NCBI RefSeq assembly: GCF_029962835.1
Contig: NC_080582.1
Span: 23,382,032-23,446,031, forward strand
DNA: 64,000 nucleotides
Direction: 5' to 3'
Origin: Magnolia sinica
Lineage: Eukaryota; Streptophyta; Magnoliopsida; Magnoliales; Magnoliaceae
The notes under the pieces are model-generated. The model was not told the DNA's origin. It worked only from the letters and a program-made list of their open reading frames with translations, and did not search any database. This document shows, piece after piece, positions 4,069-40,315 of the stretch. The position numbers were made by a program, and so were the translations under genes. The first letter of the stretch is position 1. Every line of letters begins with the position of its first letter.

Positions 4069-7067
4069 CTGCATTGTGAAAATTTAAACAGAAAAAAAAA
4101 GGGCGCGTTAGGACAGATCTCGCCTTCTTGTACTTGAGACAAATTTAACTGCAAATAGAAGATAACCTTTAAATGTTTGCGTTACATGGCCCTGCCTAGG
4201 ATTCTTCTTTTCCTACAAAGACATAAGAGACCGCATGAGGCAATTATCAGTTGATCGCATGAAGAAACTCCAGAAACTGAATACTCAAGCTGCTAGACAA
4301 AGACAACCATATGATGTGCCATTTAATTCTAGAGGACTAGACAACTATGTGTTATCTCCCGCCATTTTCTAAATGGTGGTGACTCATCCAACATACATGC
4401 AGTGCATGTGCAAGTCAATACCAACCATCCAAATCATATGCCCCACTGTGCATGGACCATATCCAGTATCTTGACAATTTAGTATCAGGCTTACAATTTG
4501 GACAGTGACCATTCTCTTGTAACTCTTCATTTGAGGCCACCAATTGGATAGCGAGGATCACTTGATTAGTAAGTCGTCCCCAGTTAAGAAATGGTGCAAA
4601 ACCAAGTATTCCCATCTTATTTCCAGATATATCTACGTTATTCTGGAAAAATGCAGAAGAATAAGTCCATGATTGTGTGGAAATTCTAGAGAAACCTACC
4701 TTAGAATTGAATGTTTGAGGTTTGTAAGGCATGTTGGGCTCACATTTGACAGCAGATCCACAGGTTTCATTAAAACATGCAGCACATGCATTTGCTGAAA
4801 TTTCATGTTCAGTGACGAAAGAAGCACGATGTGAACCCAATTCAAGTTTCTTTCTTGATATTTCCAAAAAGAAATCCAGATTTGGATCATTTTGTGCACT
4901 TCCAGGCTGTATTAGGCAAATGTGTTCAATACTCGTTAATGTCTTTGTCCCCGCAATTGGACCATGTTGCCAGAAAAGAACAAACTCGCACAAACACTGT
5001 TCTTCTCCTTTGTCAAATGTATGTTCTGAATAGTATACCTGAGATAACAGACCCATCAGAACAGTTGAATATCCAGCACAGAGAAGCTAGATATGGCCAC
5101 CATATACAGAAGAATTCTTCTAAGCCCACATGCACCAGTACACATGCCCACACATGTCAACAAGGCAAATGTGGCATGGGAGTGTTCAGGAGGTGGGCCA
5201 ACCATATAGATGACCTTGACCAGAAATCAGATCTGCCAACTCATCTGGTGGGCCTCATCTGTACATTGACTGTGGAGAGTTGGCTCATTTTTTTTCTAAA
5301 TATGTCCCTTGTCTTCATAAACATGAGGCTCACCTGATGAGCTGACTGGCCTTATTTTTCACGCCAGGTCATCCACACATTTCAGCCCATCTGATCAACA
5401 GATTGTATGTCTGCCAAACATTCCAGAGCCACAAATAGAGGCACATGTGGGCTTAGCAAGGTTCTCTAAATAAAGACTTTTACGCCTATCAGAATCATCC
5501 AGTAATGTCCAGAAAGATGACAAAGAAAATTGAAAAGCACTCAACTTTGCCAAGCCAAGCCAATTATCAATGTAGCAGAATGAAGGATGTGTTTGTAGAG
5601 GGAGAAGGCAGCCATTTTCAAAAAATTGGAAGTGCATGTGCATGTGTTAATAGTTTTTGTGACCATTTTTTAATGTTTACAAGGAGGTTGACCATTAATG
5701 TTGTTATAAAAAATTTTAAGAAAAAAAGAAAAAAAAACTTTCTCCACCAGACAATCTTAATTGCTGCAATTCCAAACACTGGTACTGTTACAGGTGATGC
5801 AGGTAATGGGGATAGAACTACCCATTTACCAAAGTCAAATATGCAGATATGATTGTTTGTACCGCTTGTAACATGTTATTTAGGTTGACTTTTAAACTTG
5901 AATGATTTTACTCAAAATAATATGTCAATATTATTATGTTTTAGTTTTATTAATGTTTTTTCAGGTCGTTCTAGCAGGATATATTTTTATAATCATCAAG
6001 GCCTCATCCCAACTAATTGGGATCAGCTACACAAATCCTGTTTCACCATTCCACTCTATCACAGACCATATCCTCAATTAAACCATGAGTCCTTGAGTAT
6101 TTTCTTACATACCTCCACCCACGTCCTTTTGGGCCTTCCCTTTGCCCTTCTAGAGCCCTCAACTTGAGCCAACTCACTTCGAGGTGGCCCCACGCGGCTC
6201 GTCCAAGCTTGAGCCAACTCACTATTTCTAACCGGTGCAGTTCTTGGTCTCCACTGAATATGGACAAACCATCTAAAGCTATGTTCCCTCATCTTATTAC
6301 CTATTTGTGATACTCCTAAGTTCCCTCAAATGCATTCATTCCAAATTCTATCCGTCTTTGTCTTACCAATCATCCATCTCAGCATCCTCATTTCCGCTTC
6401 ACTCATACTGTGAACATGTTGTTCCTTGGCTGCCCAACATTTTGTCCTATAAAGCATAGCTGGTATTATAGCCATCCTATAAAATTGTCTTCAATTTTAT
6501 TGGTTTGCAGCGATTACATAAAACTCCAGAGGCACATCTCCACTTCAGCCACCCAGCTTTAATTCTATGATCAACATCTGGTAGAGACAGTGTAGTGTGT
6601 GTGACTGATCCAAGGTCCACCATCTCTTGTATAGCATTGACACTGGTACGCTGAGCATATGAGTGTCTAGACCAGTGTTTTCAGTAGCGCTAGCGTAGCA
6701 TAGCGAAAATGCTACATAACGTACGCGAGTAGCATAATTCCCTAGTAGCGTAAGCTACAGTGCATGTAACGTACGCTACATGTAGTGCAGTGTAGTGTAG
6801 TGTGTAGCGTGTATAGCGTAAGCTACCTAAAATCTCTTCTTCTTTTTTTTAAAGTGTTTTTTCTATGTTAGTTTAACACGTATTTTAAAATGGTGATGAC
6901 TTATACCTATGACACATGGCACTACATTAAACTAATCCGGACCATCCAAATTGTGGTCCATATCATAGATAGAGCACTTGGATCAATCCGGACCATCCAA
7001 ATTGTGGTCTATATCATGAATTTGTGGTGTTTCAATAAATAAATAAAAAGAAGTAACACTTAGAAAT

Positions 7068-32760: not shown

Positions 32761-33243
32761 GAATAAACTTGAGAGATAAGTACTTATGTAATATTTAAAA
32801 CCAAACATACTTTTTTAGTTTTTCTTTGATAAATATATTGTTTATCAAACAAATTTATTTATTGAATAAGTAAAAATCAAGATAAGTTGCTTAAGTGAAG
32901 TGTGAACTAACAGTGGGGTCACTACAACAAAATAGTACTTTACCGGCGGTCAAAACATAAAACCGCCGGTAAAGGATTTACTGGCGGTTATTACATGGGG
33001 CGAAAATGAGAAAAGGCTACGAATGAAATCCGTAGCAAGATATCTTAGGTTACCAACAATCCGTAGCCTTTGGAAGTCCTGCTGTTTCAGTTTTTCCTGC
33101 CCACTTTCACCACTGGGAAAAAAAACAAAAAAAAAACGATTGCAGGTAAATCTGGCCTGATGCCATTTGAATGCTGTAACTCACCTACTGTAAAGCAGCA
33201 TACATACCACCAATCTAGACTGTCCAAAACACAGGCCATGTTG

Positions 33244-33366
33244 TGCAGAGTAAGTCAGGTTCCTCAGCCTTGCAGCCTTTGGGAACAAAGTTGCACTTTC
33301 TCCATCCGACTCCATCATCATAGGTTTGCTCAAGTACATTTGGCCAAAGCCGATTCTGTAGATTGT
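33244..33366 (-). pseudogene. NRPB2: Captured exon of RNA polymerase II subunit 2 (RPB2)
   Basis: After an acceptor (TTCGATGCAG) come 41 open codons: TIYRIGFGQMYLSKPMM, then ESDGESATLFPKAARLRN, ending LTYSA. This matches the N-terminal protrusion-lobe region of plant RPB2 (TIYKISFGQIYLSKPMM / ATLFPKAARLRNLTYSA as I remember it). The family sequence continues APLYVDV, but here homology stops abruptly at 33244. It is far too short to act as a polymerase subunit (~1,190 residues). Captured host fragment inside the CACTA element. Confidence 0.85.
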
Positions 33367-35747
33367 CTGCATCGAATCAAATACATTTACATAGATATTA
33401 ACAATGTTAGCAGCAAAAGAGGACCTCCAAAACCTTAAGAGCTGATGAAGGTGTTCAGATCTAGTAACCATAAGAAAACATTGTACTTTAAATGGTTGAT
33501 TTAATGTTCATTGCCATCAGCAAGAGCTACCTCCCAATGATGGATTCATTTGTTGCAGAAAATCTCCCTAGTATCATACATGAGATGTACCAACAGTAGT
33601 ACTATTGAAAAAACAAAGAAATCAAATAAATATTTATCATATATACTTTAAATGGGCATGAAGAAAGCCAACGTTGGTATCTCCTGATCAAAAGTTTGGT
33701 CCTTAAAAGTTTAAAGAGGCATGAAGTGAGGCCGTGCCTTAGTTGCAGGAAACCATCTACAAAGCAGGAAACATGTTTCCTAGGAAAATATGGGTTTGAT
33801 TTTCATTTTATGAAAGAGGTGGAACTGGACAGAAACTCAAAGAAACATCAGGGAATAATATTTCCCTGGGGGCACTAGAAAAGATATTTCATTTTAAAAG
33901 GTATCCTCTCTCATCTTTGATTGATTTCTTCCATCATTACTTACAAGTAAATCATCAATGGGTTCTAATTTAGAGCTTTTAATAGAAAATTAGAAATCTC
34001 AAAAAGAAGGCATAGTTAAAACTCCAAGAAGTTCCAAAGCAGCTCAAGAGACTTTTATGAGTTGTCTCAAATGGGCTGGACACTTCATACCAGCAAAAAT
34101 CATAGATCCAAAACTTTGATTGGACGAGGAAAACCTAGAAGAAAGAAAAATTCCTCTTCTATTTTGATTTTTTTTATTTAAAGAAAGGTAACAGAAGATT
34201 GAGTTCATGATTACACTTGTGCATCCTACAAACGTTGGTAGGAACCTGCTCCAACCTATCATTGATGAGGCTACGGGGAGTTGATGGCATGTCAAGTGTT
34301 CAGTGCAGATGTTTTGGGCAGCCAGTAATAGAACTCCCAAAGGAAAAATCATTAACAATATGATATAACGTTGAAAAGATGTGTTTGACAAATTGAATTC
34401 TTTATCAGACATGATATGCTAAAAGAGATTTCATAAAGAAAATACGAGGTGGAGAATAACAGAATCTGCTATTCTGCCACTTATATACTTGAAAGTGGAG
34501 AATAACAGAATCTGCTGTTCTGCCACTTATATACTTGAAAGTAGGGAATCTTGCTTGCTTGCATTTTGGCTGTCATTGTACTCAACCTGAAATAAATCTC
34601 TATGTTAATATCAAATTAGAAGATATAAAAAAGAACAAAAGAGGTGTATTCATTTCTAGGAAAGAAGAAGATCACTAGGAAACAAAAATTGATGTTTCAA
34701 GAATCTTAGAGATGAATAGTTTTCGCTTTTTAGTAGGTACATGGGGCAGTTGTAAGAAGCAGGAATTATTCTAAATAAGTTATGTGAGCTAATCAAAGCA
34801 GGCATTGCACCATTCCCCACCTGGACATGGGAACAACATTAAGAAAGAAAAATAAGAACCCTATTCAAGTAAGAAAGAAATTCTGAATCAACTGTAGAAA
34901 AATCAGAAGATAAGAGAAACCCATCTCAGAAATATTAAGAAAACTCTAGCTATGGGATTGTGTGCTTTCCTTCAATCTTGGAGCAAGGTTTTGTCTCTTT
35001 GCTGGTTGGAGAGGTTATCCCTTTCCCCATTTTCATATTGACAAGATCGTGGGTCTCATCTGATGATCAGCTTGGATCTTGTACGTGTGCCATGTTCACA
35101 TATATGGCTTGTTACCTGTAACAAGCCGTGTATTGGATTTAACCAATGTCTAGAAGATCCTTCTGAAAAAAGAAAAAAAATAAAAGAAAAAAGAAGTGTA
35201 TTGGATTTAAAAATTTTGTAGAAGCAATCCAGGAGCAATGTTCTTGACCCAGAAAACAAACCTGCAAATGTTGTAGGGAAATTGTTTTCAGAAAAATGGT
35301 TTCACTACTTCCGAACTTCAGTTGGGAAATCTGTAAATACAAAGGGAAAAATAAAATAAAATAAATAATTGTGTGGCTGGAAGAAAGGGCACAAGACACG
35401 GTCCCAAGGTTTCCTCGGGTTCATATGCCATGTAAAAGGTCAACGCTTTCTAAGAAAAATATGAAATGGCAGTGTTGCTGAGTTAACAGACAGTTGAAAT
35501 TCCTAAGGGACAAAACCTCGATTTGACAGCGAAGTTAGTAACCACCTAAGTTTCTCATCTTTTTCTACGAAGTCCATTTTAGGGGAAAAAAAAAAAAAGA
35601 AAAAAAAAAGGAAGACTACAAAGGCTGAGACTGAGCTTTTTACATCATAATTTTCTATATTAACTATTGGAAGAGACTGAGCTTCAATGAGGATGACCAT
35701 TGAAAGAGACAAAAAATTCAACGCCTTGAACAATTACAGCAGCATAG

Positions 35748-35930
35748 TTGAGTACTCGCCATCCAAATCGGATTTAAGGTACGGAACAATGAAAGATGAG
35801 GAGTTCACTTGATCAAGGTAGCGCTATCCAGCAACGTGTCAACACATTCAAAAGCAGCTTTCCTAAGCTCAAGGCCATCGTCTACAATGTGCTTAAAAGG
35901 ACCAAGATCGACTGTCCTGATCAATTCTTG
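35748..35930 (-). pseudogene. CAND1: Captured fragment of CAND1 (cullin exchange factor)
   Basis: After an acceptor (CTGATGCAG): [36 protein letters not shown], then in the next frame [20 protein letters not shown]. These fit the C-terminal HEAT-repeat region of CAND1, the TIP120-type regulator that exchanges substrate receptors on cullin-RING ligases. One extra base after LLDS shifts the frame and creates a stop, so it cannot encode even this piece intact. Captured by the CACTA element. Confidence 0.85.
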
Positions 35931-36245
35931 CTGCATCAGAAACAGTAAATTACCAAAAGGTGACCATCATATTTCTAAATTGTTCACTAAAAGAACTGTT
36001 GGGGGTAAGATGGAAGAGTCAATGAGAAGGAAACTAAGCCAGGCCTCTGGGTCAGCCCATACCTGGCTGCCCAATTTTAGCAAGAATCAAGCATGTGACG
36101 GGCATAGACATCTAAAGCTCATGCCTGGTTCAGTTCATACTCTATAGGAACATAAGCTAGCAAAAACAATGAAAGCACCTCATCTCAATAAATGTTGCAG
36201 CTCATTTTCTTGTAGTATAGACAGGAAAAGAAAATCTCCTGTACC

Positions 36246-36330
36246 CACTACAACGAAAAAAGGCCTTTAGCCTCAGTTCAAAACCATGGCTAAAAATGTT
36301 AAAAACTGAGGCTAAAGCCTTTAGGTTGGC
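36246..36330 (+). mobile_element. Second CACTA-like terminus inside the element
   Basis: CACTACAACGAAAAAAGGCC followed by TTTAGCCTCAG and its inverted copy CTGAGGCTAAAG look like a CACTA 5' end with subterminal repeats. The nearest opposite end would be a degraded TTTCTTGTAGTA at ~36208-36219, which faces the wrong way to close a nested copy. It may be a remnant of an earlier insertion. Confidence 0.55.
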
Positions 36331-37101
36331 AATCAGCTGATTCTCTAAAACTAGATAATTGAGGTCTCCACATCACAAATATGCCAAATTTCTGTCAGAT
36401 GAAAAGAACTTATTCCACAAAAAGCCAAGTAGACCTAGCTACTAATTGCATTGAAATAATCACTCCAATGTCAATTAACCCATCAATATCTCAGGATCAA
36501 ATCCTAAGCAAAAAAATCCAAATAGAGTTGTGAGCAAATCCAAAGCAAATCAATGCACAAAACAATAGAAAGGGAATCAAATGGATAGAACTAACTCCTA
36601 ATTATACTATCCATCTCACCGTAGAAATTTTTCGGTTAAGTACAATTTGGTTTGGGACTATTGACCATACATCAATTCTCATATCACAAACAGTCATTCC
36701 TTTAAGGAATAATCTACCCCAGCTTTCATAAATCAATACTGAGTGATGAAGATATGCCTCAACTCACTGGAGATGGTTCACATTTCTGGGTCCAGAGATT
36801 ATGAGTCTTATGACAAAGGATGGGGATTTCACCTTTTTCATCAGGCGAAAAAGGTTGCTGTAGCAACCGAAAAAGACATGAAGTCCCATCTCGATGTGAT
36901 TCCCACACTTATCTACAAATGAGCCCACTTTTCCACCAATGAAAGACCGTGAATCGTAAATATGAACCTAGGAAGAAAAGTTAAATTAGTTCTAAAATGA
37001 AGCTAGGAAGAAAAGTTAATGCAGAAAAAGAAAAGACAGCAGGTATGGGCTTGAAGGAAGAAGGCTTTACAGTAGAAGCAAGCATGCCATCCAAGCATAT
37101 T

Positions 37102-37165
37102 TATCAATCTATGCAACTCGAAGACTTGGACAGCAAAAACCCTCTGTTGACTAGCAGAAGTAATA
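37102..37165 (-). pseudogene. ELF3: Captured fragment of ELF3 (evening-complex protein)
   Basis: The 16 residues QQRVFAVQVFELHRLI match the strongly conserved block of plant EARLY FLOWERING 3, which normally continues with KVQ. Homology ends at the isoleucine, possibly an exon boundary. ELF3 is the scaffold of the clock evening complex. The fragment is short but the block is distinctive. Confidence 0.75.
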
Positions 37166-37609
37166 AGAAACTCAGGCCAAAATCCTAATCTTGCTAAATT
37201 ATTTAAGACCAAAAGAAGAATGTCACAGACAATGACAAACAGATATAATGAGTAATCACACATTAAACTAATGAAAACTTTGGGTGTACCTGCTGATTTT
37301 TTCCAGGAATTCCTTGGGACATTAGTCTAGGACCCTAGATTTAGGAGGAACTGAAATTCATGGAGAAAAAGAAAAACAGATGGTCTAGTAATCCAATTAG
37401 TGTGGTTTCTTTTGCTATGCTCCATCTTAAAAGGGCCCATGACTGGGACAATCTGGATTGATTTCCATAGTCCATGTGTGTCATGTGTAGCTCCCAGTAA
37501 TCATAATTCACAAAAGGCACTTTCTTTCCCTTTTTTTTTTTTTTTTTACTAATGTGGATATCAGGTCAGAAAAATAAAAATAGCATAAATCGCAAAAACA
37601 GTTAAACAC

Positions 37610-37696
37610 CTTGAAAATCTCCTGCACAGTCTCATAGTATAAACCAGTTTTAGCCCATCCACCAGTAAATAGCACACTGTTCACCAGGTTGAGCTT
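37610..37696 (-). pseudogene. GGH: Captured exon of gamma-glutamyl hydrolase
   Basis: Twenty-nine open codons sit between an acceptor TCTACTGCAG and a donor AAG/GTGTTT: KLNLVNSVLF, then TGGWAKTGLYYETVQEIFK. The FTGGWAKTGLYY block is typical of plant gamma-glutamyl hydrolase (folate polyglutamate trimming in the vacuole). The exon appears complete, with usable splice signals, so it could be exonised in a transcript. The active-site cysteine region is absent. Confidence 0.8.
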
Positions 37697-38029
37697 CTGC
37701 AGTAGATGAACATTGTACGTCAAAGCTGAAATTCATGCCACCTATTTATCATAAAAACTAGTGCAAATAGAAGGAGAAGCCAACCAGCATCTTCAAATAA
37801 TAACTATTTAATGAAAGAACATTCAAGAACCTAAGATGTGGTTGCACACACAACTAAATTGGATTTCAATAGTGAGGTAATCAAATTGCAACAACCTCCG
37901 TTAGTATTTGTATGAGGAAGTAGCCCCCAAACTGCAATTATGCCCTGTTCAGCACGGTGGATGTTTGGATGTTGAATCTGTCAGTGTTGTACAATTCCGC
38001 TTCTCCATAGTTTTGGTTTCCTTTTTCCT

Positions 38030-38105
38030 GCAGGCTAAAGGAATTTCTGGGAGGTTTGCGATCCATTTCAGGACAGAGCCAAAGGCCTCCACTTGCTTGT
38101 CTGTT
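38030..38105 (-). pseudogene. Unidentified exon-like piece in the CACTA element
   Basis: After an acceptor-like CACCTTAACAG the minus strand reads DKQVEAFGSVLKWIANLPEI, then PLAC. The residue make-up is gene-like, but I cannot name the family. By analogy with its neighbours it is probably another capture. Confidence 0.4.
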
Positions 38106-38512
38106 AAGGTGTCAAACAAAACAGTCAACAGATATAGATAAAAGGGAATGAGTTCCCAATAGAAGGAGCTCAGCTATGCCCACAGCCATACATACCATGG
38201 CAATAACATTTGTTTCTCATCCAACATGGGCAAAAAGAAAAAAAGAAAAAAGTTTAGCCTAGAGGCAATACTCCAAAACTCATTGTATGCATGTGTTACA
38301 TACCCACAGCTATAATTCACTGAAGCCATACTATTTCTCTAATGGCCTTCAATAATAACCTTGCGAGAGACCTCAATGTTGGCAGTTTTTCACCCAAGAC
38401 ACAAAAATAAGTCCTAACTATGCTACGAAATCAGGACATCCAGAAACAAAGATATTATCTTTCCTTCTAGAGATAGGTAGCACCATACCTCTTCCCATTG
38501 ATGGTGTCCTCT

Positions 38513-38600
38513 GAGGAGAGTGCCAGCGGCACTGTTGCAGTACATATTCAGTTCAGGAGAGTGCCAATGGCACTGTTGTAGTACATATTCAGTTTTGCAT
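38513..38600. repeat. ~44-bp tandem duplication
   Basis: GAGAGTGCCAGCGGCACTGT + TGCAGTACATATTCAGTT occurs twice in a row with a few differences, inside the CACTA element. Confidence 0.8.
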
Positions 38601-39039
38601 CCATCAGTAACGAGAATTTTGAGAATTACATATCTCCATTCTTTATGGGACTTCATTTATGTTGCTCATCAGATATTTCCATATAAACTTAGTAAAACCA
38701 TTGATAAATGAAATGAAACATCTAACTGAATAGAGAAAAATCCGGCAGCAGACCCTCCCCACACATAAGAATGGATCAGTGCAAATGGAGGAATTGATTT
38801 ATTTTCAGCAACGAGATAAACAGAACGAGCATGTTTAGATAATAGGAAAGGCAAGCTTCACAATCAAAGGACTTACTGTTGTCACAGCTAGCAAATGGAC
38901 CGCATCGAGTCAACTCAACAAGTCTTCCTGAGGTGGTGCAAGAACAGGGCCTTCACCCTCACCTACAATAACAAAGAGCGGAGCTCTGCTCTGATTGTCA
39001 GTCCACCACCGTCGCAGATCGCAAAATCACAGGGCCTTC

Positions 39040-39430
39040 TTCTTTGTTGGCTTCTGTCTTCGATCCTCCATTAAATCCGGCAACCCTCAGAAATCAGCGA
39101 CCCATGCGCCTCAGGCAGCCATTAAATCCGTCATCCTATGACGTGGCTTACTCAAATCCTCGATCCAGACCTTCGGCCACCATCTTCTACGGTTGCTCCC
39201 AGTCTCGACTTCCACCCCTGCTCCATCGGGCGTACGCTACTTCCACGCTTCCTACCGTGCTAGGGTTTCAAAAACCCCCCTTTCTCCAAATGATGACACT
39301 GATCTGCCGTTCCAATCGGCGAAAAAGTGGATGGCAATGAGAGCCCGAACCACCTGCTGGAGAAATATCACCTTTGACAATGGTGAGGCGCTCATGCTCA
39401 AGGCAGTCGCCCTTGATCGCAAACAGGTAT
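39040..39430 (+). pseudogene. Unidentified gene-like segment at the CACTA right end
   Basis: A GC-rich stretch unlike its AT-rich surroundings, with open frames on the plus strand. One reads ARVSKTPLSPNDDTDLPFQ and then SAKKWMAMRARTTCWRN before a donor-like CAGGTATTG at ~39425; a CTAGGGTTT leader-like word lies inside. It could be a captured first exon. The product was not recognised. Confidence 0.35.
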
Positions 39431-40315
39431 TGTCAAACTCCTATATAGGGTTTGGAAAAGACAATAAAAGGGATTTGAAATCCCCGTTTATGCACTGGAA
39501 AATTGCAGAAGAAGAGAGATTAGGGATTTGAAATCCTCGTTTACGCACTGGAAAATCGCAAAAGAAGAGAGCTCCCTAAAAACTAGTGAAGTGGGAAAGG
39601 CAAAAAGAGTTCCCGTAACACCATTGGATCGTCATCGGCAATTAATGATTCTTACATTTGCTGGCAGTTCGTGCTGGTCATCGGCAAAAAAAGTGCCGGC
39701 AATGGCCCACTTTCTTGTAGTGGGTGTCCTAACAAGCTAACAAAAAAAAAAAAAAAAAGATAAGCTGCTTAAGGCACAAGTAACTTATGTAAAGTAACTT
39801 CCGATCCAAACATCTCATAAGTATACACTCTCACGTGTACTTTAAAACTGTTACTTGCCTCCCAGGTGGTAAGGAGGCATTTGTGCGCGAGATTGGAACT
39901 GCCTATCTTCATTTTTTATAGTTCTATAATCATGTGGGCCACATGCATAAAAAAGTAAATAAACGTGGATGAGAAATTGGCTAATTGGTCCGTATATGAT
40001 CAGACAAACTTGTTTTTTAGATCATGATGATTACACGTGTCACTAAAATAGCCGTACGTTTATATGTAGTGGCTTTTATGTTGTTCATGTCCACAGTGTC
40101 CTTGTGGACGCATAAATAAAACCTTCTTATATTACATGGATTTGAAAATTGCTCAGTTTAAGTCCTCTCCATGATCGAGTTCACTCCGTTTTTATTAATA
40201 GGCAATTACCTTTGCTTGCTGTATTAAATCTACATTTTTCGATTGACCCTTTCAAAAGAATTCACACGCCAAAAGGGCCACCAGCTTTACTTGACTAATC
40301 TCAATTTGATATTTA

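Follow-up and report, generated by a model that had tools for sequence, protein, structure and literature searches.

How a single transposon comes to hold pieces of several unrelated host genes is the question raised by a locus of the Magnolia sinica genome, where a 64,000-nucleotide window (C10:23382032-23446031) contains a CACTA element of ~6.8 kb at window positions 32920-39722. A preliminary description of this DNA had proposed it to be a Pack-CACTA loaded with fragments of RPB2, CAND1, ELF3 and gamma-glutamyl hydrolase (GGH) genes. Here, the element was followed through the whole 1.84 Gb plant assembly, positions within it being given as q coordinates (window position minus 32919). The assignment to Pack-CACTAs with several unrelated donors holds, and two points missed before are added to it, namely a fifth donor, zeta-carotene desaturase (ZDS), and a probable hybrid origin, in which one element type (A-type) contributed the left end and a body with the RPB2 piece, and another (R-type) the right end and a body with the CAND1, ZDS, ELF3 and GGH pieces.

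The element starts with CACTACAACAAAA at 32920 and terminates, on the minus strand, with CACTACAAGAAAG at 39722, CACTACAA standing at both ends as expected for the terminal inverted repeats of CACTA transposons. By motif and terminal alignment, its left terminus (32920-32932, plus strand) is of A-type and its right one (39710-39722, minus strand) of R-type. Reading of the flanks gives GGT on both sides (32917-32919 and 39723-39725), that is, the 3-bp target-site duplication typical of this superfamily. Taken alone, such CACTA ends are nothing unusual, as the window contains 5 occurrences of CACTACAA against 2.2 expected, and at least 5 were reached in 8 of 100 shuffles. When the flanks were joined over a single GGT and searched in the genome, 17 of 46 matches (40 of 909 candidates scored) crossed the junction, 13 of them with zero net gap, and the two fetched for inspection (C9 and C2) are ungapped, 94% and 98% identical, and possess one GGT. 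Since the empty sites found elsewhere are continuous across the junction with one GGT, 32920-39722 is confirmed to be a single CACTA insertion, as its matching ends and GGT duplication had initially implied. One could suppose instead two adjoining CACTA insertions, each devoid of one end and with GGT coinciding by chance, considering that the ends are of two types, that motif search reveals, within the element, a third type of CACTA-like left end with no partner (36246-36322, plus strand, TTTAGCCTCAGTT hairpin), and that a 3-base match has a chance of 1/64. However, continuity of the empty sites with a single GGT means that one target sequence was split once; two independent insertions are ruled out by this search, and the probability left to them is negligible. 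The element entered a short poly-A-tailed insert, itself located inside a further repeat that is present without this insert on C8. The poly-A insert is bounded by a 17-base near-duplicate (32879-32895 and 39757-39773), suggesting three nested insertions: the repeat, the poly-A insert, and the CACTA element.

Six-frame scanning of the element against Pfam at E up to 1 returned donor families only and no transposase domain, while its plus strand gave neither Pfam donor match nor PDB match. Judged by the lack of its own transposase and the presence of host coding pieces, the element (39% GC overall) is to be classified as a non-autonomous Pack-CACTA. All five pieces lie on the minus strand, and an acceptor AG precedes each of the five exons. 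The preliminary description had noticed such a beginning for RPB2, CAND1, and GGH; it also applies to ELF3 and ZDS, but the CAND1, ELF3, and GGH pieces extend further than described, being genomic stretches of exon plus intron. Because intron sequence is included, retroposed (cDNA) capture is ruled out for these three. In the ELF3 and RPB2 pieces, the captured stretch stops short of the donor site. The genome search for parental genes that had been suggested was productive for all four names, pointing to loci on C5 for RPB2 (78% identity), C4 for CAND1 (90%), C1 for ELF3 (94%), and C3 for GGH (91%). The four fragments are thus real, as evidenced by Pfam and PDB for RPB2 and CAND1 and by genome loci with further exons for ELF3 and GGH; neither fragments foreign to the named genes nor ends belonging to different insertions, the two outcomes that would have overturned the initial view, were encountered.

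The CAND1 piece (35392-36118, minus strand) comprises a whole exon (35754-35930) and parts of both introns. It is recognized by the Pfam family TIP120 (E 1.7e-15) and by a PDB match to CAND1, and the locus on C4, having two TIP120 stretches, coincides with it in 674 of 747 alignment columns, introns included. Differences from this gene comprise 6 of 175 exon sites and 37 of 542 other sites, a 2-base insertion shifting the frame of the exon, and the replacement of the donor GTGAGT by GCGAGT. The 17 places found in the genome, all scored, are composed of 8 in elements (this one and its duplicate described below among them), the gene, 2 pieces on C7, and 6 short matches. For GGH (37485-37955, minus strand, its right limit being as close as 12 bases to where the fetched sequence ends), the exon 37610-37696 is present in full, between acceptor ctgcag and donor gtgttt. 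Neither Pfam nor PDB matched this piece, and its identity was settled via the genome locus: the exon recurs at C3:118693937-118694137 (95%), 4 kb upstream of four ordered GGH-matching stretches. These were found with a plant GGH query, 4 of 5 matches of which are in order at C3:118698017-118714251, the first with stops, and the fifth is on C4. The piece and the C3 locus are alike in 440 of 485 aligned columns, introns included, and both splice sites of the gene locus are kept. One of the 31 genomic places detected with the GGH piece, all of them scored, is the gene; a genome search for the Peptidase_C26 family gave one locus, C19:11921996, which is not near any GGH copy.

The ELF3 piece (37100-37280, minus strand) contains a small exon (to ~37151), its acceptor, and the upstream intron, ending just before the donor of the gene. 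It also has no match in Pfam or PDB and was identified through the locus on C1, with which 171 of 181 bases match and the next exon of which reads QVQKLIAGSPHLMLED, which we take to be an exon of ELF3. Among 35 places, all scored, 5 are in elements, one is the gene, one is a 79% locus on C13, and 28 correspond to an adjacent 61-base repeat, a short multi-copy sequence separating the ZDS and ELF3 pieces (37030-37090). The ZDS exon (36809-36967, minus strand, acceptor cctag, donor gtgaaa) shows a Pfam amine-oxidase-type domain and a PDB match to phytoene desaturase (E 0.002), and it is attributed to ZDS because the zeta-carotene desaturase model TIGR02732 matches it with E 5.5e-20. From 14 places (all scored), 5 are in elements, and no donor gene could be pinned down among the other 9, 8 of which have a stop in the matched stretch; the sole copy without it is C3:89006601, and 4 of the 9 have a second exon nearby. 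In all 9, the match is lost close to where the exon begins (36967-36970), so that the acceptor present in the element possibly does not come from the gene. A pair of ZDS stretches separated by ~0.9 kb, the second of which contains a stop, was observed at C2:41307443, C1:57650057, C7:49551632, and C6:5539290, as if a separate family carried a longer ZDS piece.

The RPB2 piece (33245-33410, minus strand) includes exon sequence (33245-33366) cut inside the exon, the acceptor, and 44 intron bases, over which homology to the gene continues. It is supported by Pfam RNA_pol_Rpb2_1 (E 1.2e-8) and by a PDB match to RPB2, and its locus on C5, where neighboring RPB2 exons are present, agrees in 130 of 166 bases, 22 of 122 exon sites and 14 of 44 intron sites being different. 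All 26 places obtained in the genome were scored, giving 15 long copies, 1 intron-only copy, the gene, and 9 copies of a 58-base part. The latter (33243-33300, 95-98% identity) begins each time at the same breakpoint and is perhaps part of a different mobile family. Within 12 of the 15 long element copies, 10, 11, and 14 sites vary at codon positions 1, 2, and 3, respectively, as if these copies evolve unselected within elements. Between their majority base and the gene, 6, 1, and 13 differences fall on these positions, a pattern suggesting that the RPB2 donor diverged while still a gene. Together with the 78% identity, this rules out a recent capture from the C5 gene. A second RPB2 gene was not present among the 26 candidates, although a more diverged one would escape a DNA search.

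One more explanation has to be weighed against these features, namely that the fused element operates as a chimeric gene with five exons spliced and translated. It would be consistent with the common direction of the pieces, an acceptor before each of them, and both splice sites retained in GGH, and exons of this sort are shown to be spliced in soybean Tgm-Express1 (PMC1947982). Yet the donor site and frame of CAND1 are damaged, none of the three frames of its exon is free of stops, the remaining four exons are not all open in the same frames, ELF3 and RPB2 have no donors, and the RPB2 copies vary almost regardless of codon position. We therefore regard a working gene as very improbable. Most likely the element has no present role and is a passenger, although its captured exons could be spliced into a transcript coming from the right end or from outside.

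The second part of the question, whether one or two element types stand behind this insertion, was addressed by comparison with related loci of the same genome (L numbers). A search for further copies of the entire element had been suggested, and it gave one, the whole structure being found at two places (40 of 980 candidates scored). The second copy (L002, C10:23861308-23868152) is ~446 kb away and shares both flanks, 441 of 464 sites on the left and 1359 of 1464 on the right, while the elements themselves are alike at 6669 of 6755 aligned sites, and 83 bases near the left end, absent here, are present in L002. Matching of both flanks rules out two independent transpositions and indicates a segmental duplication. 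Windowed identity to 19 relatives splits the element into an A-type left third with RPB2 and an R-type remainder with the other four pieces. The A-type-like part (32920-34945, plus strand, q1-2026) is matched by L019, L020, and L021 from q1 or q69 and by L023 piecewise from q97, all four ending at q2026, while the matches of L022 and L024 end near q1650. The R-type-like part (35425-39722, plus strand, q2506-6803) is covered up to the right end, with some internal gaps, from q2506 in L018, q3310 in L009, q3782 in L010, and q4320 in L012-L015. The leftmost matches of R-type loci are at q1243 (L011), q1872 (L014 and L015), q1954 (L013), and q2503-2506 (L016, L017, L018, L026, and L028), L011, L013, L014, and L015 also holding stretches within q1243-2630; to the left of those starts no R-type match is found, apart from 50 bases in L009. 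The block 34162-34945 (q1243-2026) has matches in relatives of both types and represents a possible switch zone.

The termini repeat this mosaic. In terminal alignments, the left end groups with L019, L021, and L022, and the right one with L010, L012, L013, L014, L018, L027, and L028, not with L021, L022, or L024. Hence, the two ends, belonging to one insertion as initially stated, nevertheless resemble two element types. Subterminal motifs, ACCGGCGGT/ACCGCCGGT on the left and GCCGGCA with ATCGGCA on the right, look unlike each other by eye, as a hybrid would show. Two R-type elements are complete, each possessing a left end of its own and flanked by matching duplications, namely TGG/TGG in L010 (5876 bp) and TTA/TTA in L012 with L044 (8774 bp). 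Relatives with the same end thus exist at several sites, the seven non-duplicate fetched loci with the exact R-type right end (those grouping with it, L015 being counted with L014) having seven different flanks, with matching duplications in two of them (L010 and L012). The third-type internal end mentioned above also occurs in L002, L009, and L018, and a similar end was noticed in L017 at oriented position 2759.

Relatedness of this kind may be read in the opposite direction, assuming a long ancestral element in which all five pieces were already present and from which the A-type and R-type relatives descended by deletion. CACTA families commonly include deletion derivatives, both types match the block q1243-2026, and R-type L009 contains 50 bases of the A-type part. 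At the same time, the full structure is known from two places (40 of 980 candidates scored) representing one insertion by their flanks, and a different left end is present in the two R-type elements having matching duplications, which makes an exchange of ends necessary anyway. We consider this ancestral composite unlikely, and prefer the hybrid account, while several observations weigh against the latter and prevent a firmer statement. First of all, no intact A-type element can be presented, since the A-type loci with both ends visible lack matching duplications (L021, cat/tca; L022, tct/gat; and L024, flanks of which are those of L021), and the right ends of A-type loci are not uniform. The left end of one type is related to that of the other (CTTTACCGGCGGTCAAAAC in the element, CTTTCCCGGCGGTCAAAAC in L019 and L021, CTTTACCGGCAGTCAAAAC in L010 and L012), and at one base the element agrees with R-type. 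The switch point is not placed: within q1243-2026, 18 diagnostic sites, for which the R side is represented by one or two sequences, are 14 A-like and 4 R-like in scattered order, with no clean transition. The 50 bases of L009 (4996-5045) are 100% identical to q871-920 and stand right beside q3310, making the history of the hybrid more complex. Identity of 90-93% to A-type and of 93-96% to R-type (right of q2506) does not tell the order of origin, and A-type and R-type elements side by side were not seen. The absence of A-type duplications, the kinship of left ends, the unplaced switch point, and the L009 stretch are the reasons why the hybrid account is given as probable and the ancestral composite retains a minor share.

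According to the hybrid account, an A-type left end and body with the RPB2 piece would have been joined to an R-type body and right end. We infer the direction of this fusion as well as its mechanism, which may have been either the loss of facing ends of neighboring elements or recombination in the block common to both lineages. The joined 6.8-kb unit would then have been mobilized in trans by the transposase of a related autonomous element and inserted once into the short repeat with the poly-A tail. The first variant corresponds to the model of Catoni et al. (2019), in which, as described in PMC13317346 and PMC8616336, the ends by which neighboring Pack-CACTAs face each other are lost, and the two that remain on the outside delimit a new element. 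Framing by the ends of two parents fits this model; unlike it, where chromosomal DNA between the parents is added, the parts meet here in or at the end of the common block, and the neighbors themselves are not seen. L026 holds two CACTA right ends 585 bases apart (5518 and 6103), one of R-type and a second one that is 75% like the left end of the element in reverse, which is the sort of neighboring pair required by the hybrid model.

Captured pieces are not confined to this insertion. An Argonaute linker 2 piece was found in L012 (1-8559), and pieces of protein kinase and PCNA accompany RPB2 in L021 (2112-8184), possibly with SecE, the match of which is weak (E 0.0048, below the cut-off) and lies on the plus strand. 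In common orientation, 8 of 9 donors are on one strand, minus, comprising the five described here, Argonaute, kinase, and PCNA, with SecE on the opposite one; both strands were scanned for this element, the right 8559 bp of L012, and L021 2112-8184, and one strand for L018. Two further exon-like stretches of the element (38028-38111 and 39370-39427) gave no match above the cut-off in Pfam or PDB, the best for the former being DUF2835 (E 0.048, 14 bits versus the cut-off of 25), and the remaining PDB matches of minus-strand queries, with E 0.8 or worse, were taken as chance. Near the right end, a block richer in GC and CpG (38923-39322) reaches 53-54% GC against 39% for the element. A GC-richer block is located at most 1.4 kb from the right end, at varying position, in 4 of 4 profiled elements with an R-type end (L001, L010, L012, and L018), and it is absent near the right end of L021. 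As a guess, 38923-39322 might be a promoter or first-exon region. From here, one may imagine this CACTA lineage as a one-way exon collector, the promoter-like right end of which gathers single sense exons and swaps left ends with sister lineages, each hybrid being a ready multi-exon transcription unit, a scheme that we put forward as speculative and rather doubtful.

The preliminary description considered four or more donors in 6.8 kb unusual. This does not stand, since Tgm-Express1, a CACTA element of the soybean wp allele, holds exon and intron segments from five host genes unrelated to each other in 5.7 kb (PMC1947982) and is a direct precedent, the donor count thus being unexceptional. The two elements are similar in class, size, and the capture of exons with introns from five unrelated genes; they differ in donors and in that Tgm-Express1, as described there, lies within an intron of a gene that is expressed and has its fragments spliced into transcripts. 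Maize Pack elements often contain pieces from more than one locus, most of all Pack-CACTA (PMC8903248). CACTA ends, the lack of detected transposase, and host coding pieces unite the Magnolia element with Pack-CACTAs of Arabidopsis and maize, from which it differs in that a single genome shows the empty site, four donor loci, and candidates for the parental element types. Other reports mention gene capture by CACTA elements in grapevine (PMC2528002) and Chenopodium (PMC8978399), while literature search on CACTA gene capture in magnoliids returned nothing on such elements there. The kind of element is therefore already known, and we do not claim that such a hybrid is unpublished; what is unusually complete is the evidence, as the hybrid, its donors, and the empty site come together. 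With the empty target, candidate parent lineages, and loci for four of the five donors in one genome, the model of gene acquisition becomes testable base by base, and the bias of captured pieces to one strand, if true family-wide, would point to a rule of capture or survival linked to transcription.

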